A stretch of DNA of 64,000 bases from the NCBI RefSeq assembly GCF_000768315.1, contig NZ_AQQX01000005.1:62001-126000 (forward strand), read 5' to 3'. Both the position numbers and the translations under genes were made by a program. Of this stretch, positions 50,273 to 64,000 are shown piece after piece. The notes below the pieces were generated by a model. That model was not told the DNA's origin and searched no databases. It saw only the letters and a program-made list of their open reading frames with translations. Positions within the stretch are counted from its first letter, which is position 1. Each line of letters starts with the position of its first letter. Source of the stretch: Pseudooceanicola atlanticus. GTDB taxonomy: Bacteria; Pseudomonadota; Alphaproteobacteria; Rhodobacterales; Rhodobacteraceae.

Positions 50273-52477
50273 TCAGGTCCTCTGCAGGGCGCAGCCATTG
50301 AGGAAGGTGAAGAACTCTGTCCAGTCGATAGGCTTGGGCAGCAGGTTCACCCCCGCCGCGCGGCAGGCCATGTTCAGCTCCGGCCCGCGGTTGGCACTGA
50401 CGATCCGGGCGGGCACGTCTCCGTGCAATCGCCTGATCTTGTGCAATAATTCCAGACCGTTCATGCCGTCGCCCAGCTGGTAATCCAGCACCAGCGCGTC
50501 TGGTCGCAGGTCGATCTCCGACAGCAATTGCAGGCCCTCTTCGCCATTCCAGGCATGGATGACCTCGCCGCCCCAGCCCTCGATGGTGAGGGTCATCGCC
50601 TTGGCAATGCTTTCGTCATTTTCCACGAGGAAGACAATTTCCCCGTTCAATTCCGGGGCTTTGCGGCGGACCGGGATCGGCGCCGGCGCCTCTGCCACAC
50701 CGAGGCGCACGGGCAGATCGACACTGAAGACGCTGCCCTGCCCGGGTTCGGAGAACAGCGACAGCGAATGATCGAGGCTCTTGCAGGCGCGCTCCACGAT
50801 GGCCAGGCCGAGGCCAAGGCTGTGTTCGGTGTGGCTGGTGTCCAAGCGCTTGAATTCCTGGAAGATACTCGCCTGATCCTCTTTCGCGATCCCGCGCCCG
50901 GTATCCCAGACCTGGACCCGCGCCACGCCACCGACCCGTCGCACCCCGACCAGCACCTTGCCCCTGTCGGTGTAGCGGATCGCGTTGGACACGAGGTTCT
51001 GGATGATCCGGCGCAGGTAGCCCGGATCGCTGCGCACCGACAGGCCGGAGCCGACGACCCGCAGGTCGATCCCCTTGGCCGCCGCGACGGGTGTCAGCTC
51101 GTCCCGCAGCGGGTCCAGCACCGCCGACAGCCGCACGGTGCGGACGTCGAAATTGGGCCGTCGCGCATCCAGCCGCGAGATGTCGAGAAGCGCCTCGATG
51201 ATCTGTTCGACGCTGGACAGCGCGCTTTCCGCTTTGGTCACAACGTCTTGTTGTTCCACGCTTTCCACGCTGTTGGCGAGGGAATTGATGAACAGTTTCG
51301 CGGCCGAGAGCGGTTGCAGCAGGTCGTGGCTGGCCGCCGCCACGAAGCGCGACTTGGAGGCATTGGCGCGCTCGGCCTCGGACAGGGCGATGCCCAGTTC
51401 GCGGGTGCGATCCTGGACGCGACGTTCCAGCATCTCGTTCATCTCGGACAGGGCGCGCGCGGCCTCTCGTTCCGCCGTCACGTCGGTGAAGCTGATGACG
51501 AAGCCGCGATCCGGCATCTCCTGCGCGAAGACGTTGAGGATCTGGCGTTCCGCGCGCACCACTTCGAAGGCGACGGGGGGACGGCCCTCGTTGTTGTTGG
51601 CCCAGCGGACCAGCATATCTCCGTCGAATTCATCAACGAATTCAAGCTGATCGCGCAACCGCTCCAGCAGGATCATGAAGTTGCGCCCCAGGGCGAGCTC
51701 CTGCGGGGGCAGGTCCAGCAGGTAATCCATCCGCTTGTTCCAGCCGACCAGGTTCTTGTCCTTGTCGAAGATGCAGACGCCCTGGTTGAGGTGGTCGAGC
51801 GTAGCCTGAAGGATGCGGGCCTGTTCATCCCGCATCTTCTCGCGTTCCTTGCGTTCCAGCCGGATGATGTTGGTCACGTCGGTCTGAAGGATCACCGTGC
51901 CGCCGCGCGCAGTGCGGTGTTCGCTGACCTGAAGCCAGCGGTCATGGGTCAGGGACACGTTGAAGGTGACGCGATCATCCCGGTGCCGCCGCGTCCGCTG
52001 CGTCGCCCAGAGCTGCGGTGTCATGGGCGTGGGCAACGACAGGTGACGGCTGTTGGAGATCAGGCGCACGTAGTTGGAAAAGGTCAGCCCCTCGTGCAGG
52101 CGCGGTTCGACATCGGACAATTCGCGGCAGAAGCGGCTGTTATAAAGGACCAGACGGTCGTCGGGACCGAACAGCGCAAAGCCCTCGCTGACGGTCTCGA
52201 TCGCCTCGATCAGGTTTTCGCGCGCGATCAGGGTTTCGCGGTTCGCCGCCTCGAGCCGGGAATTGGATTCCTGCAGCAGGTCCAGCGTGCGTTCCAGGTC
52301 GATCGTGCGTTCGCGCACCTGCACCTCGAGCAGGGCGGCGCGTTCGAACTGGGCATAGGCGACGCCGGATTGTTCGTTCTTTTTCTCGACCTTGCGCATC
52401 AGCGCGCCGACGATCTGAAGCAGCTTTTCGTTCTGCCGTTCCAGGGAATCCTTGGGGTCTATGAGGGAGGTCGACAT
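50273..52477 (-). CDS. PAS/PAS hybrid histidine kinase next to the alcohol dehydrogenase
   Basis: A 734-residue cytoplasmic sensor kinase. An N-terminal coiled coil (10-90) leads to two PAS domains (~92-205, ~222-335), a second coiled coil, HisKA with phospho-acceptor His384 in SHDLLQPLSAAKLF, an ATPase domain (N-box Asn494, DTGRGI at 525-530, GLGLAI) and a C-terminal receiver (Asp665 in LVLDYQ, Lys715). The HDLLQPL H-box resembles that of FlhS/ErcS-type kinases that control PQQ-dependent alcohol oxidation. There are no membrane segments, so it senses an internal or FIST-relayed signal. The ATG at 52477 overlaps the FIST stop (TGATG). Confidence 0.9.
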   Translation of the reverse strand: MSTSLIDPKDSLERQNEKLLQIVGALMRKVEKKNEQSGVAYAQFERAALLEVQVRERTIDLERTLDLLQESNSRLEAANRETLIARENLIEAIETVSEGFALFGPDDRLVLYNSRFCRELSDVEPRLHEGLTFSNYVRLISNSRHLSLPTPMTPQLWATQRTRRHRDDRVTFNVSLTHDRWLQVSEHRTARGGTVILQTDVTNIIRLERKEREKMRDEQARILQATLDHLNQGVCIFDKDKNLVGWNKRMDYLLDLPPQELALGRNFMILLERLRDQLEFVDEFDGDMLVRWANNNEGRPPVAFEVVRAERQILNVFAQEMPDRGFVISFTDVTAEREAARALSEMNEMLERRVQDRTRELGIALSEAERANASKSRFVAAASHDLLQPLSAAKLFINSLANSVESVEQQDVVTKAESALSSVEQIIEALLDISRLDARRPNFDVRTVRLSAVLDPLRDELTPVAAAKGIDLRVVGSGLSVRSDPGYLRRIIQNLVSNAIRYTDRGKVLVGVRRVGGVARVQVWDTGRGIAKEDQASIFQEFKRLDTSHTEHSLGLGLAIVERACKSLDHSLSLFSEPGQGSVFSVDLPVRLGVAEAPAPIPVRRKAPELNGEIVFLVENDESIAKAMTLTIEGWGGEVIHAWNGEEGLQLLSEIDLRPDALVLDYQLGDGMNGLELLHKIRRLHGDVPARIVSANRGPELNMACRAAGVNLLPKPIDWTEFFTFLNGCALQRT

Positions 52478-53643
52478 CACGAGGCCTCCGTATCCTTCGC
52501 GTAGAGCGCCACGCCGGTCATCGTGTGGTTGACGTGCAGCGGGCCGATCTGTTCGCCGTAGGTCGAAAAGCCGATCACCTTGTGACGGGCCAGGATGTCA
52601 GAGAGATCGCGGGTCGCCTGGTTCTGTTCGGCCTGGATGCGGCGCAGGATGCAGTCGCAGCCTAGGATATCGGTCAGCGGCCCTGCCCCGGCGATCAGGT
52701 TCAGCTGTTCCTCGAGATGTTCGACGAGGTTGCGGGGTTCGGCCACGGTCAGGACCATGCCCTCGTCCACGGCGGAAAAGAAGACCAGTTCTCCATCCGC
52801 GTTGACCTGCTGGATCGCGCGGACATGGTGGCTGTCGCCGATGCGGACGACGACCGGGTGCGAGGCAAAGGTGAAGCGGTCCAGTTGATCGGGATCCTTG
52901 CCGACGATGCGGGCATATTCGCGGGCCGCGGGTTCGGCGTTGATGGATTTGACGATGCGCCGGTCCGGGTCGGCGCCGGTCACGACCATCTGCCGTTCCG
53001 TGGGCACGAGGTGGTCGATGCTGAAGACCTGCGCCTGAAGATCGGTCTGGATAAGGGTCAGCACGGCCGCGTCCTGGCGGGCCTCACCGTTGAGCGAGAC
53101 CTGCGTGCGCCCGAAATTCAGCCCATCCCCCGCAGAGCCACCGAAGAGCGGCATGTCCCGCAGGGCGGGCGCGATCAGCGAGGTCAGCGTATCTTCGCGC
53201 AGGGACAGCCCGTCGATGGCGAGGAAGGCAAAGCCCTGGGGCTTGTCCTCGTGCTGTTCCTGCAGGGCGACGCGGGCCAGGGCGATACGGTCGATGACCC
53301 CTTGCGAGGTCTGATCGGTCAGCCCCTCGATCAGGATCGAGGTGGACACGAAGTGATCTGCCGGGAAGCCGATGGCGATCACCTCGCCCTCGACATAGCC
53401 GCCGGCGCCGATCTCTCCGGCGGTGGTGCAGGCGACGACATCGGTGTCGAGGAAATGCGCCCGGAACCGCGAGACGAAAGCCGCGAAGTCGGTATCGGGT
53501 GAAACAAAGAGGATGACCAGCGACATGGGGGTGTTCCCCAGGTCTTTCAGCAGTTTTTCAACGGCTTGCGGGTCATGCGCCGACGCCTGCGCACGGCACA
53601 GAGAGTGCCGCGACCCCGCTGGCGGGTCGAAGTCCTGTCGCAT
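52477..53643 (-). CDS. FIST-domain sensor protein
   Basis: A 388-residue protein with FIST_N (~35-230) and FIST_C (~240-370) domains. FIST_N features include VACTTAGEIGAGGY and PLFGGSAGDGLNFG. FIST domains are proposed small-molecule (amino-acid-like) sensors linked to signal transduction. It is directly upstream of, and overlaps, the hybrid kinase, so a ligand-bound FIST protein probably regulates the kinase. There is no signal peptide. ATG 53643 follows GGGAGG. FIST-kinase pairs next to PQQ alcohol dehydrogenases recur in proteobacteria, to my knowledge, but the ligand is not known. Confidence 0.88.
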   Translation of the reverse strand: MRQDFDPPAGSRHSLCRAQASAHDPQAVEKLLKDLGNTPMSLVILFVSPDTDFAAFVSRFRAHFLDTDVVACTTAGEIGAGGYVEGEVIAIGFPADHFVSTSILIEGLTDQTSQGVIDRIALARVALQEQHEDKPQGFAFLAIDGLSLREDTLTSLIAPALRDMPLFGGSAGDGLNFGRTQVSLNGEARQDAAVLTLIQTDLQAQVFSIDHLVPTERQMVVTGADPDRRIVKSINAEPAAREYARIVGKDPDQLDRFTFASHPVVVRIGDSHHVRAIQQVNADGELVFFSAVDEGMVLTVAEPRNLVEHLEEQLNLIAGAGPLTDILGCDCILRRIQAEQNQATRDLSDILARHKVIGFSTYGEQIGPLHVNHTMTGVALYAKDTEAS

Positions 53644-53677
53644 CAATTGTGGCCTCCCTTCCACAACGATAGAGGCG

Positions 53678-54358
53678 CTAGTCTTCGCTTGGCAATAGGC
53701 TTGTAAACCTGGCCTCATGCGCCACAAGGACGGCCTGGGTGCGGCTTTGAACACCGAGTTTCCGCATGATCGCAGTGACATGCGCCTTCACCGTGGTTTC
53801 GGCAATCGACAGGTCGAAGGCGATCTGCTTGTTCAGCTTGCCTTCGCAAATCAGGTGCAGGATGCGGGCCTGCTGGTTGGTCAGCGACGACAGGCGTTCC
53901 ACGCTCTGGGTATCGACTGCGCTGTCCTCGCCTTCGACGAAGCCGCCGGGCTTGTAGACATTGCCGGCGCGGATCTCGTCCATTGCTTCCTTGAAGGTGC
54001 TGCGGCTGGAATGCTTGGGCACGTAGCCCGAGGCCCCAGCGGCGATGGCCGAATTTATCACGGCGTTTTCCGTCAGGGACGAGACGATGATGATCTCGGA
54101 TTTCTCCGACTTGCGCTTGAGGCTCAACAGCCCGTCCAGCCCGCTGACATCGGGCAGGTTGAGGTCGAGAAGGATGATCGACGGGGCGGGAAGGCCCTCA
54201 AGTTCGTCCAGGGCCGCGGCCAGGCTGTTGGCGGTGCGGACCATGGTGAAGTCGGCGACGGATTTCAGGGTCAGTTCCAGCGCATCGCAGAACAGGGGGT
54301 GATCATCGACGATCAGCGCCCAACGACCGATGGACGGGTTGGTGACGGTGTCGGACAT
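53678..54358 (-). CDS. LuxR-family response regulator
   Basis: A 226-residue NarL/LuxR-type regulator. The receiver has phospho-Asp65 in ILLDLNLPD, acidic pocket VDDHP, and Lys in YVPKHS. The C-terminal helix-turn-helix reads LTNQQARILHLICEGKLNKQIAFDLSIAETTVKAHV. It lies downstream of no operon partner but beside the FIST-kinase pair (transcribed the same way) and is separated from the dehydrogenase by a terminator. It is the likely target of the hybrid kinase and the likely binder of the TTGGTCG motif. The start is uncertain: ATG 54358 has AGCAGG; ATG 54379 would be nearly leaderless from a TATAGT box. Confidence 0.9.
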   Translation of the reverse strand: MSDTVTNPSIGRWALIVDDHPLFCDALELTLKSVADFTMVRTANSLAAALDELEGLPAPSIILLDLNLPDVSGLDGLLSLKRKSEKSEIIIVSSLTENAVINSAIAAGASGYVPKHSSRSTFKEAMDEIRAGNVYKPGGFVEGEDSAVDTQSVERLSSLTNQQARILHLICEGKLNKQIAFDLSIAETTVKAHVTAIMRKLGVQSRTQAVLVAHEARFTSLLPSED

Positions 54359-54448
54359 GGGGACCTGCTGTACTTTCATGAGATCACTATAGCCCCATTT
54401 CGCGCGTCGGGATGTTACCAAAAGGTATTATGCCCGCATGCCGGGCAC

Positions 54449-54502: not shown

Positions 54503-56266
54503 TTACTTGGCCGCGAACTGCTCCGGGAGGCGGAAGGTCCACAGCAGGCCACCCTGGTTGAGGTAGTTCACCTTCTTGGCGACCTCGCCACCCCAGAGCG
54601 GAACCGCGCCACCCCAGCCTGAGATCACGGTGACATACTGGGTGCCGTCCTGTTCCCAGGTGATCGGCTGCCCGACGATGCCGGAGCCGGTCTGGAAGGA
54701 CCACAGCTCTTCCCCGCTATCGGCGTCGAAGGCCTTGAACTCACCTTCGGGGGTTCCGGTGAAGACCAGCCCGCCGGCGGTCGCCATCACGCCACCCCAG
54801 AGCGGGGCATCGTTCTTGTATTCCCACTTCACCTCGCCGGTGTCGGGGTCGATGGCCTTGAGCGATCCGATATGGTCCTCGTAGTTCGGCTTGATCGTGA
54901 AGCCGGACCCCAGGTAGGCCGCGCCCTTCTTGTAGGAAATCGGCTCGTTCCAGATATCCATGCCCCATTCGTTCGACGGCACGTAGAAAAGACCGGTATC
55001 GGGCGAATGCGCCATCGGCATCCAGTTCTTGCCGCCCAGGAAGGACGGGGAAGAGAAGACGACCTCGCCCTTCTTCCCATCTGCGGCGTCTGCCGGATTG
55101 CCGGGACGGTTGGCCTCGTTGAAGATCGGGCGACCGGTGTCGTCGATGCCCTCGGCCCAGGTGATGTCCTTCACGAAGGGCGTGGCCGAAACGAACGCAC
55201 CGTCTTCGCGGTTCAGCACGTAGAAGAAGCCGTTCCGGTCCGCGGTGGCGTAACGCTGGTTGCCCGAGCGGTCGGTATAGGCCACGACCTCGTTCACGCC
55301 GTCATAATCCCAGCCCTCGCGCGGGGTGGTCTGGAAGTGCCACTTGATCTCGCCGGTCGCCGGGTCGATGCCGAGGCGCGAGGCGGCATAGAGGTTGTCG
55401 CCCGCATTGCCCTCGACCGGAGTGCCTGCGTTGCGCAGGTGGCTGTTCCAGGGCGCCGGGTTCCCGGTACCGAAGACCAGCGTGTCGGTGTCCGCGTCGT
55501 AGGAGCCGCCCAGCCAGGTCGCCCCGCCACCGGTTTTCCACATGTCGCCCGGCCAGGTCGCGTTCAGCGTACCGGTCATTGTGGATTCCTCGCCGTTGAG
55601 CGTGCCCATGTGGCCTTCGATCACCGGGCGGGTCCAGACCAGTTCGCCGGTTTCGGCGTCACGCGCCTGCACTTCGCCGACGATCCCGAACTCGCCGCCG
55701 GAATTGCCGGTGATGACCAGGCCCTTCACGATCAGCGGGGCGGCGGTATAGCTGTAGCCCGCCTTGTAATCCGCGATCTTCTTGTTCCAGACGACGTCGC
55801 CGGTATCCTTGTTCAGCGCAACGATGCGCGCGTCCAGCGTGCCGAAATAGATGTTGTCGCCGTAGATCGCTGCACCGCGGTTCACCACGTCACAGCAGGG
55901 CAGGATGCCCTCGGGCAGACGCGCATCATATTGCCAGAGCTCTTCGCCGGTGCGGGCGTCGATGGCGTAGAGACGCGAATAGGAGCCGGTGATGTACATG
56001 ATCCCGTCATGCACGATCGGCTGGGTTTCCTGGCCGCGCTGCTTTTCCCCGCCCAGCGAGAAGGCGTAGGCCGGCACCAGGTTATCGATATTGTCCCGGT
56101 TCAGCGTGTCCAGCGGCGAGAACCGCTGCAGGTGGCGGCCCATCCCGTTGGTCAGCACGTCGCCGGTCGTGGCGGCATCGTTGGCAAGGTCTTCCTCCGT
56201 GACCTGTGCCGAAGCCATGCTCGCCGCCACCATGGACGCCGTCAGGGCAAGTATGAATCTGTTCAT
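54503..56266 (-). CDS. PQQ-dependent alcohol dehydrogenase, lanthanide type (ExaF/PedH-like)
   Basis: A 587-residue periplasmic quinoprotein. The signal peptide ends near residue 20. It follows ExaA closely: adjacent cysteines Cys124-Cys125 (the PQQ-shielding disulfide ring), and the eight-bladed propeller of Trp-docking repeats. Metal/PQQ ligands are Glu192, Asn269 and catalytic Asp320. The position two residues after the catalytic Asp is Asp322 (WDYDGVNE; codon 55301-55303), where Ca-dependent ExaA has Ser and MxaF has Ala. That extra aspartate is the accepted mark of lanthanide-dependent enzymes (XoxF, ExaF, PedH). It oxidises primary alcohols and passes electrons to cytochrome c. GGAGG precedes the ATG. 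Confidence 0.93.
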
Positions 56267-56369: not shown

Positions 56370-56408
56370 TTGGTCGTACGACCCTGCCCTGCTCTACAAC
56401 CAAAGTCG
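56370..56408. promoter_or_regulatory. Shared inverted motif at the dehydrogenase promoter
   Basis: TTGGTCG, 20 bases, CAACCAAAGTCG; the outer arms TTGGTCG/CAACCAA are inverted. The motif recurs at 63221-63256 with a 17-base spacer and the same orientation. Its near edge is about 104 bases from the dehydrogenase ATG. Confidence 0.6.
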
Positions 56409-56460
56409 CGATGCGACATCCGCGCCATCGGGCTAACCTGTCCGGCAGGGAGGAAACATC

Positions 56461-56637
56461 ATGCACGAAAGCGCTCTGCCGGGGCCGTCTGTGCCCGTTC
56501 CCGCATGGGGAACGGGTGGGGAGCCCTATGCGCGCAGTCCGTGGATGATGAACCGAGACATGTTGGTACGATCCTCCTGCCCCTCAGGCCATGCAACCTC
56601 TGGCTGCACAAAGACATCGCAAGGAGCATCATCGTGA
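56461..56637 (+). CDS. Candidate 58-residue protein upstream of the orphan ABC genes
   Basis: ATG 56461 has AGGGAGG at a spacing of 7, the strongest ribosome binding site nearby. The 58-codon frame ends in TGA at 56635, overlapping the GTG start of the next gene as GTGA, which suggests translational coupling. The peptide has no hydrophobic signal. Its first part holds VPAWGTGGEPYARSPWMMNR; its last part is Ser/Thr/Cys-rich (Cys40, Cys49). I recognise no family; it lacks the Glu-x3-Tyr of PqqA. Codon use in the last 20 codons is less typical, so it may be a coupling leader rather than a working protein. Confidence 0.45.
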   Translation: MHESALPGPSVPVPAWGTGGEPYARSPWMMNRDMLVRSSCPSGHATSGCTKTSQGASS

Positions 56638-57608
56638 CACGCATCAGAACCTTCCTGGCCGCCGCGCTGTGCGGCCTCCTCTCCACCGGAGCGGCGCTGG
56701 CCGAGGCGCCCGTTCTTAAAGTGGCCGTGCTGAAGATCGGTACGGTGAACTGGGAGCTCGACAGCATCCGCCACAATGGCGACGACACGGCCAACGGCTT
56801 CGCGCTTGAGGTGCAGGGCATGGCCGGCGGATCGGCCAGCCAGATCGCCTTCCAGGGCGGAGAGGCCGATGCGATGGTCACGGACTGGCTGTGGGTGGCG
56901 CGGCAGCGGGCGGCGGGCAAGGACTACGTCTTCATACCCTATTCCCGCGCCGTGGGCGGCCTGCTGGTCAGGCAGGACAGCCCCGCCCAAAGCCTGTCGG
57001 ACATGCAGGGCAAGGCAATCGGCATCGCGGGCGGGCCGCTCGACAAGAGCTGGTTGATCCTGCAGGCCTACGCGGAGCAGGAATACGAGCTGGACCTGAA
57101 GGCCGGGACCGAACAGGTGTTCGGCGCGCCGCCGCTGATCTTCAAATCCGCCCTGTCGGGCGAGGTCGATGGCGCGCTGAACTACTGGCATTTCAACGCC
57201 AAGATGCAGGCCGCCGGCATGCGGACGCTGATCGACGTGGCCGACGCGGCGCGGGCGCTTGGCCTCGATCCCGACACCCCGCTGCTGGGCTATGTCGTGA
57301 AGGGCGAATTCCTGCGCGACAATCCCGACCTCGTGCAGGGCTTTGCCGCCGCCAGCCGGGCCGCCAAGATGCGCCTGGCCGAGGATGACGCGGAATGGGA
57401 TCGGCTGCGCCCGATCATGAACGTGAAGAACGACGCCCAGTTCGAGGCGCTGAAGGCCGGGTTCCGCGCCGGCATCCCTGCGCCGGGCCCGATCGACGAA
57501 GCCGCCGCGGCCCGGATGCTGGCCCTGATGGCGAAGCTGGGCGGGCCGGAGCTGGTCGGAACCACCGACACGCTGCCCGATGGCGTCTTCCTGAACACGG
57601 GCGGCTGA
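56634..57608 (+). CDS. ABC-type substrate-binding protein (NMT1/TauA-like)
   Basis: A 324-residue periplasmic binding protein. The signal peptide is about 23 residues (basic start, hydrophobic core, ALA-E cleavage). The body is of the nitrate/sulfonate/taurine-type binding family (NMT1-like). The GTG start at 56634 has AAGGAG at a spacing of 7. It overlaps the ATPase gene by one base. No permease gene lies in the window, so the partner is elsewhere or missing. Its position opposite the dehydrogenase and beside the shared motif suggests import of something required for PQQ alcohol oxidation; the ligand is unknown. Confidence 0.85.
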   Translation: MTRIRTFLAAALCGLLSTGAALAEAPVLKVAVLKIGTVNWELDSIRHNGDDTANGFALEVQGMAGGSASQIAFQGGEADAMVTDWLWVARQRAAGKDYVFIPYSRAVGGLLVRQDSPAQSLSDMQGKAIGIAGGPLDKSWLILQAYAEQEYELDLKAGTEQVFGAPPLIFKSALSGEVDGALNYWHFNAKMQAAGMRTLIDVADAARALGLDPDTPLLGYVVKGEFLRDNPDLVQGFAAASRAAKMRLAEDDAEWDRLRPIMNVKNDAQFEALKAGFRAGIPAPGPIDEAAAARMLALMAKLGGPELVGTTDTLPDGVFLNTGG

Positions 57609-58240
57609 TGCTGGACGCCCTGCCCCCCACCACCGTCGCGCGGCTGGAACTTGCCAGTTTCTCGCGCGGCGGGTCGGTCATCCTGCGCAACATCCACCTG
57701 GACCTGCTGCGCGGGCAGACCCTGGCGCTGGTCGGCCCGTCGGGGATCGGCAAGACCACGCTGCTGCGTATCCTTGCGGGCCTTGAGGACGGGTATTCCG
57801 GGCGGGTTTCGGTCGAGGGGCGGGTTGCCGTCGTTTTCCAGGAACCGGCGCTGCTGCCCTGGCGGAGCCTTCGCGACAATATCTGCCTGCCCACCGGCGC
57901 GACGCGCGACGCGGCCGAAGCGATGCTGGCAGAGGTCGGCCTGGCCGGACGCAGCGGCGATTTCCCCGGTCAGCTGTCCCTGGGGCAGCAACGGCGCGTG
58001 GCCCTGGCCCGCGCTTTTGCCGCGGCGCCTGACCTTTTGTTGCTGGACGAACCCTTCGTGTCTCTGGACGCGGCCCTGGTGCAGGACATGATGGACCTGT
58101 TCCTGAAGCTCAGGGACCGGCACCGGGTCGCGACGCTGTTTGTCACCCATGCAGAAGCCGAGGCGCGCTACCTGTCAGACCGGATCATCCGCTTGCAGGG
58201 CAGCCCGGCCAGCCTCGCCCCGCTCAGCGCGATCACCTAG
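57608..58240 (+). CDS. ABC transporter ATPase without a permease partner
   Basis: A 210-residue ATPase of the nitrate/taurine/sulfonate family. Walker A is GPSGIGKTT, the signature is LSLGQQRRVALARA (LSxGQ form), Walker B is LLLLDEP, and the switch His is in FVTHAEAEA. It overlaps the binding-protein gene by one base (TGATG), and its stop overlaps the convergent Sel1 gene's stop by four bases (CTAG). Confidence 0.9.
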   Translation: MLDALPPTTVARLELASFSRGGSVILRNIHLDLLRGQTLALVGPSGIGKTTLLRILAGLEDGYSGRVSVEGRVAVVFQEPALLPWRSLRDNICLPTGATRDAAEAMLAEVGLAGRSGDFPGQLSLGQQRRVALARAFAAAPDLLLLDEPFVSLDAALVQDMMDLFLKLRDRHRVATLFVTHAEAEARYLSDRIIRLQGSPASLAPLSAIT

Positions 58241-58779
58241 AAAAGCGGCGCGTATTTCCAATCATCGGCATCCGGCGTGACCTCGTCGAGGTCATAGCCC
58301 GCGCCTTGCAGGCGTTTGGCCACGTCCAGCCCTTCGGCGGCGGCGGTGTCCACATATTGGCGGCCAAGCGCCTCGTCCTTCGCCACGCCATGGCCACGCA
58401 TCAGGTCCAAACCGTAATTGAACTTGCCCACCGGATCACCGGCCTCGGCCGCGCGGCGATCCCATTCGGCGGCGGCGTCCGGGTCGTAGTCTCCGCCCAG
58501 GCCGTTATTGTCCAACTGGCTCATCCAGGTCATCGCGCCGGTATATCCGGCGGCGGCACAGGCCTCGAAGATCGCGCGGGCCGAGGCATGGTCCCCGGAT
58601 TTCGTCATCAGGTAACCGCTGGCGCAGACCATCATGTCGATCTTACCCTTGCGGGCCTTGTCGACATTGGATTGCCACGTCATCTCATCCGGGTTGAGCG
58701 TGCCGTGGGCGTTCGGGTCCTCCTCGGCCAGGGCGGGGGTCGCGACCAGAAGGGCGGCAAGGATCAGTGCATGTTTCAT
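58237..58779 (-). CDS. Sel1-repeat periplasmic protein
   Basis: A 180-residue secreted protein. The signal peptide is MKHALILAALLVATPALAEE. Two or three Sel1/TPR-like helical repeats are visible (YTGAMTWMSQLDNNGLGGDYDPDAAAEWDRRAAEAGDPVGKFNYGLDLMRGHGVAKD...). Sel1 repeats mediate protein contacts. The genomic setting suggests a role in maturation or assembly of the alcohol-oxidation system, by inference only. GGAGG precedes the ATG. Half of the TTGGTCG motif (ATGGTCGTAG, 58835) lies upstream. Confidence 0.8.
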   Translation of the reverse strand: MKHALILAALLVATPALAEEDPNAHGTLNPDEMTWQSNVDKARKGKIDMMVCASGYLMTKSGDHASARAIFEACAAAGYTGAMTWMSQLDNNGLGGDYDPDAAAEWDRRAAEAGDPVGKFNYGLDLMRGHGVAKDEALGRQYVDTAAAEGLDVAKRLQGAGYDLDEVTPDADDWKYAPLF

Positions 58780-58850: not shown

Positions 58851-59642
58851 TCAGCCCTTGCGACCTTTCAGGCCGCGCGCCGGGTCGTAACCGTAGATCG
58901 CGCCGCAGGTGAAAACGACCGTTGCCAGCAGCGTCCAGCCCAGTGCGGCGGCGTTGAACTGGCCGTAGAGCGCGAAGCGGAGCAGCTCTACCGCGTGGGT
59001 GAACGGGTTCAGGGCACAGATCGTGTAGAGCAGCTCCGAACTTTCTGCCATTTTCCACAGCGGATAGAGCGCGGAGGACAGGAAGAACATCGGGAAGATG
59101 ACGAAGTTCATCACGCCCGCGAAGTTCTCCAACTGCTTGATGAAACTGGACAGGACCAGCCCGAGCGCGCCCAGCATCAGCCCGACCACGACCAGCGCCG
59201 GAAATAATGTCAGGTAGCCTTTCCAGGGGGGCGTGATGCCGAAAGCCCCGGCGATGGCGAGGAAGGCATAGACCTGAAGGATCGAGATCGCGGTAGAGCC
59301 GACGAGTTTCGAGAACAGCAGCCACCAGCGTGGCAGCGGGCTGGTCAGAAGCAGTTTCATCGACCCGGTTTCGCGGTCGTAGACCAGGCTGAGGGAGGAC
59401 TGCATCCCGTTGAAGAGCATGATCATTCCGCAGAGACCGGGCACGATGTAGGTCTCGTAGGTGATGTAGGTCTGGTAGGGCGGAATGATACTGACACCGA
59501 GGGCCGCGCGGAAGCCGGCAGCGAAGACCAGCAGCCAGACCAGGGGCCGGACCAGCGCGGCGACGAACCGTTCGCGCTGATGCACGAAACGCAGGGCCTC
59601 GCGCAGGATGATGGCGCGCAGGGCAGTCAGGTGGCCGGTCAC
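58851..59642 (-). CDS. ABC-2 type permease of the PQQ alcohol-oxidation system
   Basis: A 263-residue ABC-2 membrane protein with about six membrane segments, conserved in the RxxLW/ETGSMKLLLTSPLPRWWLLFSKL loop. It matches the permease (PedC-type) that accompanies PQQ-dependent alcohol dehydrogenases; the exporter's cargo is unknown. The GTG start at 59642 has AGGA upstream. The ATPase gene ends 168 bases upstream; that gap is not obviously coding. Confidence 0.87.
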   Translation of the reverse strand: MTGHLTALRAIILREALRFVHQRERFVAALVRPLVWLLVFAAGFRAALGVSIIPPYQTYITYETYIVPGLCGMIMLFNGMQSSLSLVYDRETGSMKLLLTSPLPRWWLLFSKLVGSTAISILQVYAFLAIAGAFGITPPWKGYLTLFPALVVVGLMLGALGLVLSSFIKQLENFAGVMNFVIFPMFFLSSALYPLWKMAESSELLYTICALNPFTHAVELLRFALYGQFNAAALGWTLLATVVFTCGAIYGYDPARGLKGRKG

Positions 59643-59810
59643 GGGGCGCTGTCCTGTAGGTCTGGCGAAATGCGATGACGGTCAGGACCGGCGGACCTTT
59701 GGCTTGAAGGGGTTTGATAAACGGAACGTCCTGTCAGGGGCTGGAGGATGCATCCCTGCCCCCGGTTCGCGGCGCGACCAAGACAGGCCGAACCCGAAAC
59801 CTCCGCCATT

Positions 59811-60569
59811 CTACGCAACGGATCCCCCGGCCCTTTGAAGCGCAGTTCCGTTTGTGCCCCCGTCGCCGGTCATCGCCAGAAACCGCTCGGCCATGCCCTG
59901 CCCTGCGGCGATATCGCCTGCGGTGCCGACGGCCAGAACGCGGGAACGGTGCAGAACGACCAGTTGGTCTTCGGGCCGGATTTCGTCGGTCAGATGCGTC
60001 GCCCATAGGACAGAGATACCGTCCGCCGCAAGGTCGTGAACATGGCCGGTGATCGCATGGCGGGCCGCGGCATCCAGACCCACGGTCGGTTCGTCCAGCA
60101 ACAGGACCTGCGGATCGTGCAACAGGGCGCGGGCGATCTCGGTCCGGCGCTTGTGGCCGCCATTCAGGTGACGCGCCTTTTCCCCGGCCCTCGGCAACAT
60201 GTCGAGCCGGTCGAGCGCCGCGTCGACACGCCGCCGCGCGTCGCGCCCCGCAATCCCGTGCAGGGCGGCGAAATAGGTCAGGTTCTGGCGCACGGTCAGG
60301 TCCAGATCGAGCGTCGTTTGCTGGAACACGATCCCCAGCCTGGCCAGCGCCCGGCGAGGGTGGCGCGACAGGTCGTGCCCCGCGATCTCGATCCGGCCGT
60401 GTCGGCTGGTCAGCAGCCGGGTCAGTAGCGCGAAGAGGGTTGATTTCCCCGCCCCGTTCGGCCCCAGCAAAGCGCAGAAGTGGCCCGGCGCGACCGAAAA
60501 CGACACGTCCTCCAGCGCCTGATTGCCGCCATAGGCATAGCTGAGACCAGAAACCGAAAGCCCGCTCAT
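59811..60569 (-). CDS. ABC-2 type ATPase of the PQQ alcohol-oxidation system
   Basis: A 252-residue ATPase. Walker A is GPNGAGKST, the signature is LNGGHKRRTEIARAL (Asn replacing the usual Ser, His-Lys replacing Gln/Met), and Walker B is LLLDEPTVGLD. It works with the permease at 58851. It starts 16 bases after the upstream gene, within one long minus-strand operon from 63163 to 58237. Confidence 0.9.
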   Translation of the reverse strand: MSGLSVSGLSYAYGGNQALEDVSFSVAPGHFCALLGPNGAGKSTLFALLTRLLTSRHGRIEIAGHDLSRHPRRALARLGIVFQQTTLDLDLTVRQNLTYFAALHGIAGRDARRRVDAALDRLDMLPRAGEKARHLNGGHKRRTEIARALLHDPQVLLLDEPTVGLDAAARHAITGHVHDLAADGISVLWATHLTDEIRPEDQLVVLHRSRVLAVGTAGDIAAGQGMAERFLAMTGDGGTNGTALQRAGGSVA

Positions 60570-60585
60570 CCGCGCCGCGCCTGCG

Positions 60586-61026
60586 TCATTCGATAGTGAT
60601 ATCAAGGCGTTGCGTTTCCCCGATCGTGCCGGGCACCTTGATGTGATAGCGGCCGGGCTTCACCGCGATGAAGCCGATCTCCATCTCGCCCGCCTCGTCG
60701 AATTCGACGCTGTCGAGGCCCAAGGGGCGGATCTCCAGCCCCTCCACCACGATCTCGTCGATCCAGATGGCGCGGAAGAATTCCGGGCCGACCAGCGCCA
60801 ATTCCTGGCTGCCGTCGCCCTGTATCTCGAACTCGTAGTAGGTGCCGGATTTCAGCACCCAGGGCGCGTCGGCGAGGGGCATGCCGGCCGACAGGATCAC
60901 CGGCGGCAGGTCTTCCTTGTTCTTGCCCGACAGCAGGCCAGCCGCCCCGAAGGACGGACGTTCGTCATCGGCAATGGCGTAAGTTGCGGTCAGCATGGCG
61001 ATCAGCGTGATCCAGAGCAGTTTCAT
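60586..61026 (-). CDS. Secreted protein of unknown function in the alcohol-oxidation operon
   Basis: A 146-residue protein with a signal peptide (MKLLWITLIAMLTATYAIA). The mature part is predominantly beta-strand and acidic, with the pattern GRYHIKVPG near the C-terminus and no Cys or His-rich metal site. A cupredoxin-like fold is conceivable but the copper ligands are not apparent. It lies between the propeller gene and the ATPase gene, in the same operon, so a periplasmic role in the same system is likely. Confidence 0.7.
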   Translation of the reverse strand: MKLLWITLIAMLTATYAIADDERPSFGAAGLLSGKNKEDLPPVILSAGMPLADAPWVLKSGTYYEFEIQGDGSQELALVGPEFFRAIWIDEIVVEGLEIRPLGLDSVEFDEAGEMEIGFIAVKPGRYHIKVPGTIGETQRLDITIE

Positions 61027-61034
61027 GGGGGGCC

Positions 61035-62003
61035 TCATTCAGTGGGGCGGAAGGCGGCACCCCAGGGGAACCGGCCGACTTTGATGGATTTGATGGCTTC
61101 GCGGTTGGCGACGTCGATAACGGTCACATCCCCCGAAACCCCGTTGGTGGTGAACAGACGCGAGCGGTCGCGATTGAATTCCATGTGCCAGACCCGGCGA
61201 CCGACTAGGATGTAATCCTCGACCTCGTAGGTGTCTGCGTTGACGACGGCCACGTGGTTCGACGGGCCGAGCGCGACATAGGCATGGCTGTCGCCGGCGG
61301 TGAATTCAAAGCCGACGGGCTGCACGCGGTCGGGATGCACGCCCTTGACCTCGAAGGCGATCTTGGCCTTTTCCGTCTGCGTGGCCGTGTCGAAAACGGT
61401 GATCGTGCCACCGATTTCCGAACTCACCCACATCTCGGCCCCGTCCTTGATGAACTCGGCATGGCGGGGGCGGCTGTCGACCAGGGTGTTCGCGAAAAGC
61501 TGCTGCGTTTCGGTGTCGATCCAATGCGCCATGTTGGTGGTCTCAGAAGTGGTGATCGCGATCTTGCCATCGGGCGAGACGGCCATGCCTTCGGGCTCCA
61601 CCCCCACGTCAATCTGGGCCACGACCTTGCGGGACCGGGTATCGACCACCGTGGTGATCGCGTCATCCTCGTTCGCGATATAGAGGTGCACGTCGTCGGG
61701 ATGCAGCACGAATTGTTCCGGGTCCTCGCCCGAGGGCAGGTCATGCAGGATCTCTCCGGTCTCGGGATCCATCACCTGCACGGCGTCACTGTCAGAGGCG
61801 CAGATGTAGAGGTGCGAGAAATCCTTGGAAAAGGTGATGCCGCGGGGGCGTTCGCCGGTCGGATAGGTCTTGATGACCTCGAGCGTTTCGATGTCGATCA
61901 CGCTGACCGTGTCGTCCTTTTCGTTGGTCACCCAGATCTCGTCGGCCAGCGCCGGGACGGCGGCGAGCGTCAGGATCGTCACAAGAGCGGTCATGGTTTT
62001 CAT
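61035..62003 (-). CDS. YncE-like beta-propeller protein (PQQ-system associated)
   Basis: A 322-residue periplasmic seven-bladed propeller with a signal peptide (~20 residues). Repeated units read like VTNEKDDTVSVIDIET and YIANEDDAITTVVDTRS. It matches the beta-propeller proteins that neighbour PQQ-dependent alcohol dehydrogenases and their ABC-2 exporter; their function is unknown. It overlaps the upstream gene by 4 bases (ATGA). Confidence 0.9.
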   Translation of the reverse strand: MKTMTALVTILTLAAVPALADEIWVTNEKDDTVSVIDIETLEVIKTYPTGERPRGITFSKDFSHLYICASDSDAVQVMDPETGEILHDLPSGEDPEQFVLHPDDVHLYIANEDDAITTVVDTRSRKVVAQIDVGVEPEGMAVSPDGKIAITTSETTNMAHWIDTETQQLFANTLVDSRPRHAEFIKDGAEMWVSSEIGGTITVFDTATQTEKAKIAFEVKGVHPDRVQPVGFEFTAGDSHAYVALGPSNHVAVVNADTYEVEDYILVGRRVWHMEFNRDRSRLFTTNGVSGDVTVIDVANREAIKSIKVGRFPWGAAFRPTE

Positions 62004-63163
62004 CGAAAGGCCTCGCATTTGCTTTCGGGTTCATCGAGCCCGATCGTGTCGAGCTCGTTCACGCGGTGCAGGAAGCCGTCGAGCGGCGCCTGCGCGACCA
62101 GCGCGCGGGGGTGGACGACGGCGATCGGCTGGCGGAGCTGACCGTTCCAGCGGCGATATGACAGCGGGCGTCCCTTGAACCCGGCCAGTTCGAACGCCTC
62201 CGACAGGATGTAGGCGCGCAGCTCCGCCGGGTCGGCAGAGCCGGTGCGTGTCACCGCCTCGCCGATCGTGCGCAGGGCGGCCCAGGCGGCGTAATCTTCC
62301 GGGGCCATGTCGCGGGCATGGGCCTCGGCAAAGCGGCTTTGCAGTTGGGCGGCGCCCCATTGTTCGATCACCGGGCTCCAGCCCACGGGGCTGAGCCCTT
62401 CGGACCCGATCACCGGCCGCGCGACCCATGTGTTGTAAAGCACGTAGCGGCCGAAATCGTGCAGCTCATCCGCCACGATCAGCGCGTCGTAATCGCCCAG
62501 GTCCTGGGTAAAAAGCGGGACCTCCTGCGACGCATTGCGGCGCATGTCCGCGTCGAAGGCCCAGGTCTTTTCCTTGCGCAGCTTCAGCCCGAACTTGGAG
62601 AGAGAGCGGCGCATCGCGTCGGCATAGGCGATATCGTCCGGATGTGTGCCGGTGATCAAAGCGAGGTCGGTCCAGCGTTTCTGCACCAGAACCTGCGCCA
62701 GCGCATCGGTGCGCATCGCGTCTGAGGGCAGCGTATGCAACAGGTTCGCCCGGCATTCCGCATCGCGCAGATGCCCTGCCCCCTCGGATATGTTGAAGAG
62801 CAGCGCACCCTCGGCCTCGGGCAGGTCGGCGATGGCCAGCTGCACCTCGGGCGCGGCGTCGAGCAGCAGGAACCGATGCTCGGCCAGCATGGTTCGGGCA
62901 GCCGACAGCGGGTCGTCGCCTTCGGGCACGTCACGGTCCGACAAGGCGTAGCTGTGGCCCAGGAACCGCCCTGTCGTCGCGTTGTCTGACAGTCCGGTCA
63001 GCGCCCCGGCCAGGCCCAGATCGCCGGGCACCGGGTCGAGGTTCGACAGGGTCGGCGGCAAGGGCTGCGCAACCCTGAGATGTCCGATACTGACCGCAAC
63101 CTCTGCCACGGCCGCCTGGGCGCAGCATAGCAGAGCGGCCGCACAGAGCATGCGGTTGAGCAT
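62000..63163 (-). CDS. ABC substrate-binding-like protein (PQQ-system associated)
   Basis: A 387-residue protein with a signal peptide (MLNRMLCAAALLCCAQAAVA) and a periplasmic-binding-protein (Leu/Ile/Val-type) fold. It is the leading gene of the minus-strand operon 63163-58237. Family members accompany PQQ alcohol dehydrogenases, yet the associated exporter is ABC-2, which does not usually use such a protein. GGGAGG precedes the ATG. The shared inverted motif lies 58 bases upstream. Confidence 0.87.
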   Translation of the reverse strand: MLNRMLCAAALLCCAQAAVAEVAVSIGHLRVAQPLPPTLSNLDPVPGDLGLAGALTGLSDNATTGRFLGHSYALSDRDVPEGDDPLSAARTMLAEHRFLLLDAAPEVQLAIADLPEAEGALLFNISEGAGHLRDAECRANLLHTLPSDAMRTDALAQVLVQKRWTDLALITGTHPDDIAYADAMRRSLSKFGLKLRKEKTWAFDADMRRNASQEVPLFTQDLGDYDALIVADELHDFGRYVLYNTWVARPVIGSEGLSPVGWSPVIEQWGAAQLQSRFAEAHARDMAPEDYAAWAALRTIGEAVTRTGSADPAELRAYILSEAFELAGFKGRPLSYRRWNGQLRQPIAVVHPRALVAQAPLDGFLHRVNELDTIGLDEPESKCEAFR

Positions 63164-63220
63164 TGTCAATTCCTCCCGACCTGCAGCGTAACGACGGCAT
63201 CGGTCGCGGCGTATTAGACC

Positions 63221-63256
63221 TTGGTCGCGCTTCGCGCCGGGCCGCAACCAAAGTCG
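63221..63256. promoter_or_regulatory. Shared inverted motif in the exporter/cytochrome divergon
   Basis: TTGGTCG, 17 bases, CAACCAAAGTCG. The 12-base right half is identical to that at 56397-56408. It lies between the minus-strand operon (ATG 63163) and the plus-strand cytochrome gene (ATG 63325). Confidence 0.6.
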
Positions 63257-63324
63257 AATACCGCGAAAGATGAGTGCCCCATACAACATCGGGCAATTCA
63301 TCATTCTGCCGGAGGAGACCAGAG

Positions 63325-64000
63325 ATGACCCAAGCCTTCCCCAAAGCGTTCGGCGCCGCCGCGGCCGCGATCGCGATTGCCACGCTTGCCCATGCCCATG
63401 GCGATGTCGCGCCCCAGGCCGTCGATACGACCGGACTGCCCGAGGTGGGCGAGGAATGGCTGACCGAGAACCCCTACCGCGCCGACAAGGTGGGCGAAGA
63501 TGTCTGGAAGACCTCGATCGAGATCGGCGCATCGGGCTACAATCAGAACTGCGCGCGCTGTCACGGGCTGGATGCTGTGTCCGGCGGGCTGGCCCCCGAC
63601 CTGCGGTTCCTGGAGGCCGAGGAATACGGCGATGAATGGTACGTGGAGCGGTTCCGCTACGGCTATACCCAGAACGGGATCACCAAGATGCCGGAGTTCG
63701 GCGAATTGCTGGGCCAGGAAGCGGCTTGGGCGATCCGGACCTATATCGAAACCCGCCCCGACACCGACCAGATGGAAGAGGTCTCGGCCGAGCTGAAAAC
63801 GATCCGCGACCAGTTGCAGGGCTATGCCGAGGATGCCAGCGGCGCCGATGCCGATGCGCTGAAAACGCGACTGTCCGAGATCGCGGAGGGGATCGAAACC
63901 CTGTCCGGTGCGCCGGTGGCCGATTCCGTGGCCTACAAGGCGGCGAACATGATCGACGGCACCGAAGCCGCCTACAAGGACGCGGCCGAGACGCTGACGA
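63325..64000 (+). CDS. PedF-like cytochrome c (C-terminus cut by window edge)
   Basis: At least 225 residues of a periplasmic cytochrome c. The signal peptide ends at AHA (~24). The mature start HGDVAPQAVDTTGLPEVGEEW is typical of PedF-type cytochromes c-550. The heme site is Cys76-Ala-Arg-Cys79-His80, and Met122 (TKMPEF) is the likely sixth ligand. It would accept electrons from the quinoprotein dehydrogenase. Beyond residue ~150 there is a further, mostly helical, ~75-residue stretch (EVSAELKTIRDQLQ) not usual for the family; it continues past the window. GGAGGAG precedes the ATG. Confidence 0.88.
   Translation, partial: MTQAFPKAFGAAAAAIAIATLAHAHGDVAPQAVDTTGLPEVGEEWLTENPYRADKVGEDVWKTSIEIGASGYNQNCARCHGLDAVSGGLAPDLRFLEAEEYGDEWYVERFRYGYTQNGITKMPEFGELLGQEAAWAIRTYIETRPDTDQMEEVSAELKTIRDQLQGYAEDASGADADALKTRLSEIAEGIETLSGAPVADSVAYKAANMIDGTEAAYKDAAETLT

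Follow-up and report, generated by a model that had tools for sequence, protein, structure and literature searches.

Lanthanide-type PQQ dehydrogenases are reported to be common in the ocean (PMC11996626), and the roseobacter Marinibacterium anthonyi La 6 is described as needing La for growth on ethanol via XoxF5 (PMC5934484). The stretch of DNA analysed here (64,000 nucleotides from Pseudooceanicola atlanticus, in the following "the window") holds a PQQ-dependent alcohol dehydrogenase gene that carries the lanthanide-marker aspartate, in a genome in which we found no pqqB, pqqC, or pqqE. This raises the question of which metal the enzyme uses, and from where the cell obtains the metal and PQQ.

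The dehydrogenase and its marker aspartate

54503..56266, minus strand: PQQ-dependent alcohol dehydrogenase of the PedH/ExaF type, 587 aa, signal-peptide-like N-terminus, TIGR03075
55307-55309, minus strand: codon of Asp320, the catalytic base
55301-55303, minus strand: codon of Asp322, the lanthanide marker (within 55301..55309)

Both codon positions were calculated from the start codon at 56266. The product scored 773.7 bits against the NCBIfam profile TIGR03075 (cut-off 480). Alignment placed the catalytic aspartate at residue 320 and the marker aspartate at residue 322 of the motif GWDYDGVNE, and thereby confirmed the preliminary description, which had read WDYDGVNE as an aspartate two residues after the catalytic base; ExaA (PDB 1flg) has WDFSGNNE. 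Glu192, Asn269, and the pair Cys124-Cys125 are also in place, and the residue set of the PedH/ExaF type (E192, N269, D320, D322) is complete. In a PDB search, the best matches were 6zcv (829 bits), which we take to be a PedH variant, and 6zcw (826 bits), both with WDFDGVNE, while ExaA (1flg) reached 716 bits. The entry 6ZCW is named as PedH (PMC11996626).

The marker aspartate was found in all 80 named relatives (54 with WDYDGVNE, 26 with WDFDGVNE), which are the best 80 of 591 candidates and, at 81% identity or more, represent close kin only. In a survey of 295 family genomes, 57 of 57 clade members of full length carried it as well, a count that leaves out the two fragmentary members G198 and G216. 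We then calculated a tree of 40 proteins, in which the marker columns were kept in the alignment and an ExaF sequence was not included. The dehydrogenase was grouped with PedH and an Azospirillum Asp-type enzyme (support 99/96), outside the calcium-type clade of ExaA and three Ser-type enzymes (100/100), which forms the sister clade. The placement within the ExaA clade that the preliminary description had named as counter-evidence was thus not observed. The tree program warned of long branches meeting at deeper forks (MxaF, Burkholderia, and VWDLD rows), without naming the Asp/Ser fork. Identity with XoxF was ruled out by the tree, as the dehydrogenase lies in a clade separate from 36 XoxF-type proteins, to which it is 34-39% identical.

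No second TIGR03075 protein above cut-off was detected in the source genome, neither a Ca-type partner nor XoxF. The other PQQ_2 matches, considered as candidates for a second PQQ alcohol dehydrogenase, lie on contig C46 in a repeat protein that is presumably BamB-like, as its Pfam title suggests.

The preliminary description had treated the aspartate as diagnostic for rare-earth use. However, the lanthanide motif also occurs in characterised membrane glucose dehydrogenase, which is considered metal-promiscuous, and metal heterogeneity has been reported within type 2b (PMC11996626). The residue alone is therefore no proof of lanthanide use and not strictly diagnostic, although here the motif agrees with the tree and with the importer described below. 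Metal promiscuity as proposed for the glucose dehydrogenase, i.e., lanthanides when present and calcium otherwise, would also suit an enzyme that is the only PQQ alcohol dehydrogenase of its genome, for which an obligate lanthanide need would be costly. We nevertheless regard it as unlikely, as PedH of Pseudomonas putida, the nearest solved relative, is reported to have shown no activity under the conditions chosen for PedE, the Ca enzyme, whereas La, Ce, Pr, Nd, and Sm supported activity and Gd and Tb did so weakly (PMC5487730).

A lanthanide-type importer and the other neighbouring genes

58851..59642, minus strand: PedC, permease (TIGR03861, 447.1 bits, cut-off 241.35)
59811..60605, minus strand: PedB, ATPase (TIGR03864, 337.3 bits, cut-off 302.25)
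60586..61038, minus strand: secreted-looking protein of 150 aa, encoded between PedA2 and PedB and matched in 51 of 80 loci
61035..62018, minus strand: PedA2, beta-propeller (TIGR03866, 524 bits, cut-off 287.3)
62000..63163, minus strand: PedA1, substrate-binding protein (TIGR03863, 466.4 bits, cut-off 413.6); start set at an internal Met of ORF 62000-63532
63325..64000 and past the window end, plus strand: cytochrome c550, PedF-like (60.5% identity over 119 residues to annotated PedF)

The preliminary description had seen no lanthanide-uptake gene in the window, which proved wrong: the four components of a PedA1A2BC/lut-type lanthanide importer are all encoded at 58851-63532, with scores that exceed the respective NCBIfam cut-offs. 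P. putida without pedA1A2BC is reported to require about 100-fold more La for PedH-dependent growth, and every bacterium reported up to that time to produce Ln-dependent PQQ-ADHs was described as having pedA1A2BC homologues (PMC6839425). By analogy, the importer would supply lanthanide to the dehydrogenase. The 150-aa product of 60586-61038 had no match in Pfam or NCBIfam and is possibly an unrecognised part of the importer.

Across the 295 family genomes, PedC above cut-off was present in 86 of the 90 genomes with an Asp-type PQQ dehydrogenase vs. 5 of the 205 others (p = 1e-62, kinship ignored). The Asp-type group comprises the ExaF clade, XoxF, and three smaller groups (PFDYDATNE, VWDLD, and DYDE); the ExaF clade alone accounts for 55 of 59, and the overall figure rests much on XoxF too. 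The four Asp-type genomes without PedC are drafts of 81-94% completeness, and an MxaF-type enzyme is present in one (G083) of the five PedC genomes without an Asp-type enzyme. The counts do not include the distant proteins L197, L200, and L201 of G014 and G048, in which an Asp is aligned at the marker without Glu, Asn, and Cys-Cys, nor the distant protein of G018. None of these three genomes has PedC above cut-off, and the count becomes 86 of 92 with G014 and G048 added.

L150 and L151 form a small Asp-type group with the motif PFDYDATNE, 41-44% identical, and each lies near PedA1/PedA2 homologues. L193, L194, and L195 are PQQ dehydrogenases with DYDEVG and without the Cys-Cys pair, of which two are located near PedABC-like genes.

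The importer also bears on the view that the enzyme is calcium-dependent and of the ExaA/PedE type, with the aspartate as a neutral change. Such an enzyme would account for the 716-bit similarity to ExaA and for the sister position of the ExaA clade. However, the marker position, a Ser in the ExaA/PedE type, is Asp322 here and Asp in each of the 80 best and 57 full-length relatives counted above, and the tree keeps the clades apart. Furthermore, a PedABC-type importer adjoins the gene, whereas the parts inspected of two annotated Ser-type islands showed none, i.e., those of Paracoccus pantotrophus pPAN1 (where the stretch begins at the record start) and Azospirillum TSH58. On the basis of motif, tree, and gene context, we thus reject the calcium-type assignment, and regard a neutral aspartate in such an enzyme as very improbable. 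The earlier proposal that the island is lanthanide-dependent is instead backed by the motif, the tree position, and the adjoining complete lanthanide-type ABC importer, and lanthanide use by the dehydrogenase is a well-supported prediction from these sequence features.

Around the dehydrogenase and the importer, we identified several further genes:

50273..52480, minus strand: PAS hybrid histidine kinase, PedS1/NahK-like as judged from its position and domain content
52477..53781, minus strand: FIST-domain protein, NosP-like (374 bits, under the cut-off of 450)
53678..54421, minus strand: LuxR-type response regulator, ErdR/AgmR-like (156 bits to ErdR, under the cut-off of 390)
58237..58779, minus strand: small secreted protein, whose Phaeobacter plasmid counterpart is annotated as sel1 repeat, with a match in 55 of 80 loci

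The regulators at 50273-54421 resemble the nosP-nahK/PP_2663-PedS1 pair, for which PMC12997753 served as the source of comparison, plus a LuxR-type regulator. As there is no second PQQ alcohol dehydrogenase, a lanthanide switch of the PedE/PedH type would have no object here. The cytochrome c550 at the window end (63325..64000) is the likely electron acceptor of the dehydrogenase. A similar island without the regulators is found on a Phaeobacter gallaeciensis plasmid, where its genes are annotated as encoding PedF, a binding protein, a beta-propeller, an ATPase, and a permease.

Plasmid-borne relatives were seen in 73 records, with 80-95% identity at the best place, including Pseudosulfitobacter and Phaeobacter plasmids. 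Directly past the island, L005 2006-6268 holds a gene matched in 19 of 80 loci, presumably CoxG-like, and a three-gene set that we take to be carbon monoxide dehydrogenase-like. Two genes further beyond the window end (L005 6343-9551), presumably NosR-like and ApbE-like, had matches within the retrieved flanking sequence of 27 and 29 of the 80 loci, respectively. In the neighbour table, L092-L121 are loci of at most 4.8 kb, for which blanks are uninformative.

A PqqT-type binding protein in a genome without recognised PQQ biosynthesis genes

The source genome (4.94 Mb, 47 contigs) is 99.4% complete. Profile searches gave no match for pqqC, and the best matches for pqqE (51 bits, 381 needed) and pqqB (22 bits, 245 needed) were far from sufficient, so that the genome has the gene content of a PQQ auxotroph. 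Since such a cell makes no PQQ, it would have to take it from its surroundings. One could instead assume an unrecognised pathway for PQQ synthesis or pqq genes that were missed in assembly, as the genome is a draft of 47 contigs. Against this stand its completeness and the absence of pqqC from a second genome of the same genus (G192), as well as the joint absence of pqqC and pqqE from 20 of 49 named genomes, for which completeness is not stated; we therefore rate it as very unlikely.

The absence of pqq genes extends beyond this genus. pqqC was absent from 28 of the 59 family genomes with an ExaF-type enzyme, or 23 of 52 at a completeness of at least 95%, and from 5 of the 36 XoxF genomes; in these counts, a match of 48.6 bits in G226 was scored as absent, and partial matches in G110, G119, and G273 as present. 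The named set consists of isolates only (49 for pqqC, reached through 50 of the 80 named loci, with L061, L065, L070, L080, and L087 left out; 50 genomes for pqqE, with L061 added and matches accepted up to E = 1e-40). The same 20 named genomes lack both genes, and include Pseudooceanicola onchidii, Litoreibacter ascidiaceicola, Amylibacter kogurei, Loktanella salsilacus, Shimia ponticola, and Gemmobacter aquatilis. On the enzyme tree (52 genomes, a quick tree that does not tell gain from loss), at least 16 switches between presence and absence of pqq are required. In 16 of 80 loci, pqqBCE lie within the retrieved flanking sequence, which indicates that pqq genes can belong to the island. In L131 (G110), the dehydrogenase frame has one TAA and pqqC is in two pieces, reflecting either joint decay or poor assembly.

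A comparison with P. onchidii, which also lacks pqqC and pqqE, yielded dN/dS values of 0.063 for the dehydrogenase, 0.15 for PedC, 0.14 for PedA2, and 0.20 for the binding protein described below. The simplest reading is that the dehydrogenase has been under purifying selection after pqq loss, provided that the loss predates the split from P. onchidii.

Beside the dehydrogenase gene lies a candidate route for PQQ uptake:

56640..57605 (ORF 56370-57608), plus strand: periplasmic binding protein, PqqT homologue (match to PDB 9b1u)
57608..58240, plus strand: ABC ATPase of the PqqT-type system, adjoining the binding protein; start set at an internal Met
G000:C43:134431-135192, 8.4 kb past the window end: permease homologue of the PqqT-type system

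The preliminary description had called the binding protein an orphan, a view that does not hold given the adjoining ATPase and the permease homologue; the latter also speaks against a loss of the permease, and it occurs in 61 of 63 genomes with a PqqT orthologue. The binding protein matched PDB 9b1u/9b1v over the whole chain (E = 7e-66), with 120 of 297 residues identical (40%), which makes it a whole-chain homologue of PqqT. Lys115 of the 9b1u chain belongs to the residues that at least 95% of 41 aligned sequences have in common, and is probably the Lys142 of PqqT in the literature, given an offset of 27 residues. The further strong match 9ooz appears to be a PqqT variant, as its letters are near-identical. 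According to the literature, the entry 9B1V shows PqqT in complex with PQQ and Gd, and PqqT is reported to bind PQQ with a Kd of 50 nM and to let cells take up exogenous PQQ (PMC12828617). A role of the binding protein as a lanthanide binder is unsupported, as the PDB entries that it matched strongly are 9b1u/9b1v and 9ooz, and 9B1V among them is PqqT; an identity of 40% to PqqT does not, in turn, prove the ligand.

We then asked whether PqqT, with orthologues defined by at least 55% identity, tracks the loss of pqq. Among ExaF-clade genomes of at least 95% completeness, it was present in 22 of 23 without pqqC vs. 15 of 29 with pqqC (p = 5e-4), and in 22 of 23 vs. 7 of 21 after removal of the XoxF genomes (p = 1.4e-5); the pqqC-less G153 has only paralogues of 42-43%. 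PqqT is thus not confined to auxotrophs, although it is present in nearly every auxotroph that has the enzyme. XoxF genomes showed no difference (3 of 5 without vs. 22 of 31 with pqqC). In the named genomes, the binding protein lies beside the dehydrogenase gene in 17 of 20 without vs. 7 of 29 with pqqC (p = 3e-5), and the adjoining ATPase gave the same counts (17/20 vs. 7/29, p = 3e-5). The p-values for twelve other island genes were 0.06 or higher (PedC: 17/20 vs. 17/29, p = 0.06). Allowing for kinship, the link between PqqT and auxotrophy was not significant, with too few independent pairs: of seven usable pairs, 2.5 were with the link, 1 against, and 3.5 without difference, and of six pairs after removal of the XoxF genomes, 3.2 were with, 1 against, and 1.8 without difference.

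The shortage of pairs leaves some room for a different reading, in which the adjoining NMT1-type ABC system carries an alcohol-derived compound or another cofactor and the link to pqq loss is inherited kinship, and its occurrence in about half of the pqqC-bearing near-complete ExaF genomes would fit. However, the whole-chain match to PqqT with the conserved Lys at chain position 115 argues against it, as does the near-restriction of the orthologue to genomes with such enzymes (3 of 201 genomes without a listed PQQ-ADH); we give this reading a low, though appreciable, probability.

As candidates for an outer-membrane route of PQQ and lanthanide, three TonB receptors were found in the source genome, whose nearest solved structures are iron or heme receptors, and by this measure no PqqU-type receptor was recognised among them. 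PqqU was reported from one alphaproteobacterium only, with the class judged as likely primarily producers of PQQ (PMC12124388).

Proposed mechanism and comparison with known systems

The observations comprise the sequence with its motifs, the tree, the synteny, the missing pqqB, pqqC, and pqqE, the co-occurrence patterns, and purifying selection. From these we infer that the bacterium is probably a PQQ auxotroph, in which the island serves the lanthanide-dependent oxidation of alcohols and PqqT captures PQQ. The dehydrogenase would be a periplasmic, lanthanide-dependent PQQ enzyme of the PedH/ExaF kind, in which Asp322 would complete the coordination of a light lanthanide brought in by the adjoining PedA1A2BC. 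Its substrates may be ethanol-like alcohols and aldehydes, and electrons would pass to the neighbouring cytochrome c550, with the NosP/NahK/AgmR-type cassette presumably controlling the island genes. PQQ would be captured from the surroundings by the adjoining PqqT-type binding protein with its ABC partners, for which both PQQ binding and an inward direction of transport are predicted from homology.

A broader proposal, to which we give an even chance, is that many Rhodobacteraceae with a lanthanide-type enzyme lack PQQ synthesis, after repeated loss of pqq, and obtain their neighbours' PQQ, perhaps lanthanide-bound, via the PqqT-type ABC route and not via PqqU, while the enzyme and the importer are kept. 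If this holds, both cofactors of the enzyme, PQQ and lanthanide, would be scavenged, and alcohol oxidation in many species of the family would rely on neighbours for PQQ and on scarce lanthanides. The dehydrogenase and the importer are of known kinds, and it is their combination with pqq loss and PqqT that is new; it is unexpected that the enzyme should be kept under selection in genomes without PQQ synthesis, beside a PqqT-type protein. The proposal runs against the published view of Alphaproteobacteria as likely PQQ producers and not scavengers (PMC12124388). Among the articles listed in searches of the open-licence PMC library, we saw no earlier report of PQQ-auxotrophic lanthanide-type systems in Rhodobacteraceae.

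Regarding known systems, the scavenging of PQQ through PqqU in E. coli has in common with the present case a quinoprotein without PQQ biosynthesis, but differs in that no PqqU-like receptor was recognised here. With the type 2b enzymes PedH (P. putida KT2440) and ExaF (Methylorubrum extorquens AM1), the dehydrogenase shares the set of Glu, Asn, Asp-x-Asp, and Cys-Cys, and PedH is both its best PDB match and a member of the same clade; in contrast, the source genome lacks a Ca-type partner enzyme, and hence a two-enzyme lanthanide switch, as well as PQQ synthesis. The Ca-type enzymes ExaA and PedE belong to the same family, and a Ser-type island on Paracoccus pPAN1 has the same regulator trio adjoining, but they carry Ser instead of Asp at the marker and fall into a separate clade. 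As in PedA1A2BC of P. putida and lut of M. extorquens, all four importer components adjoin each other, whereas here a 150-aa protein of no known family lies between PedA2 and PedB. PqqT of M. extorquens shares with the binding protein the 40% identity over 297 residues, the Lys at 9b1u position 115, and the ABC ATPase alongside, but the permease lies about 14 kb from the ATPase in the present genome. Finally, PqqT has been described as supplementing endogenous synthesis (PMC12828617), whereas its homologues in Rhodobacteraceae often occur in genomes unable to make PQQ.
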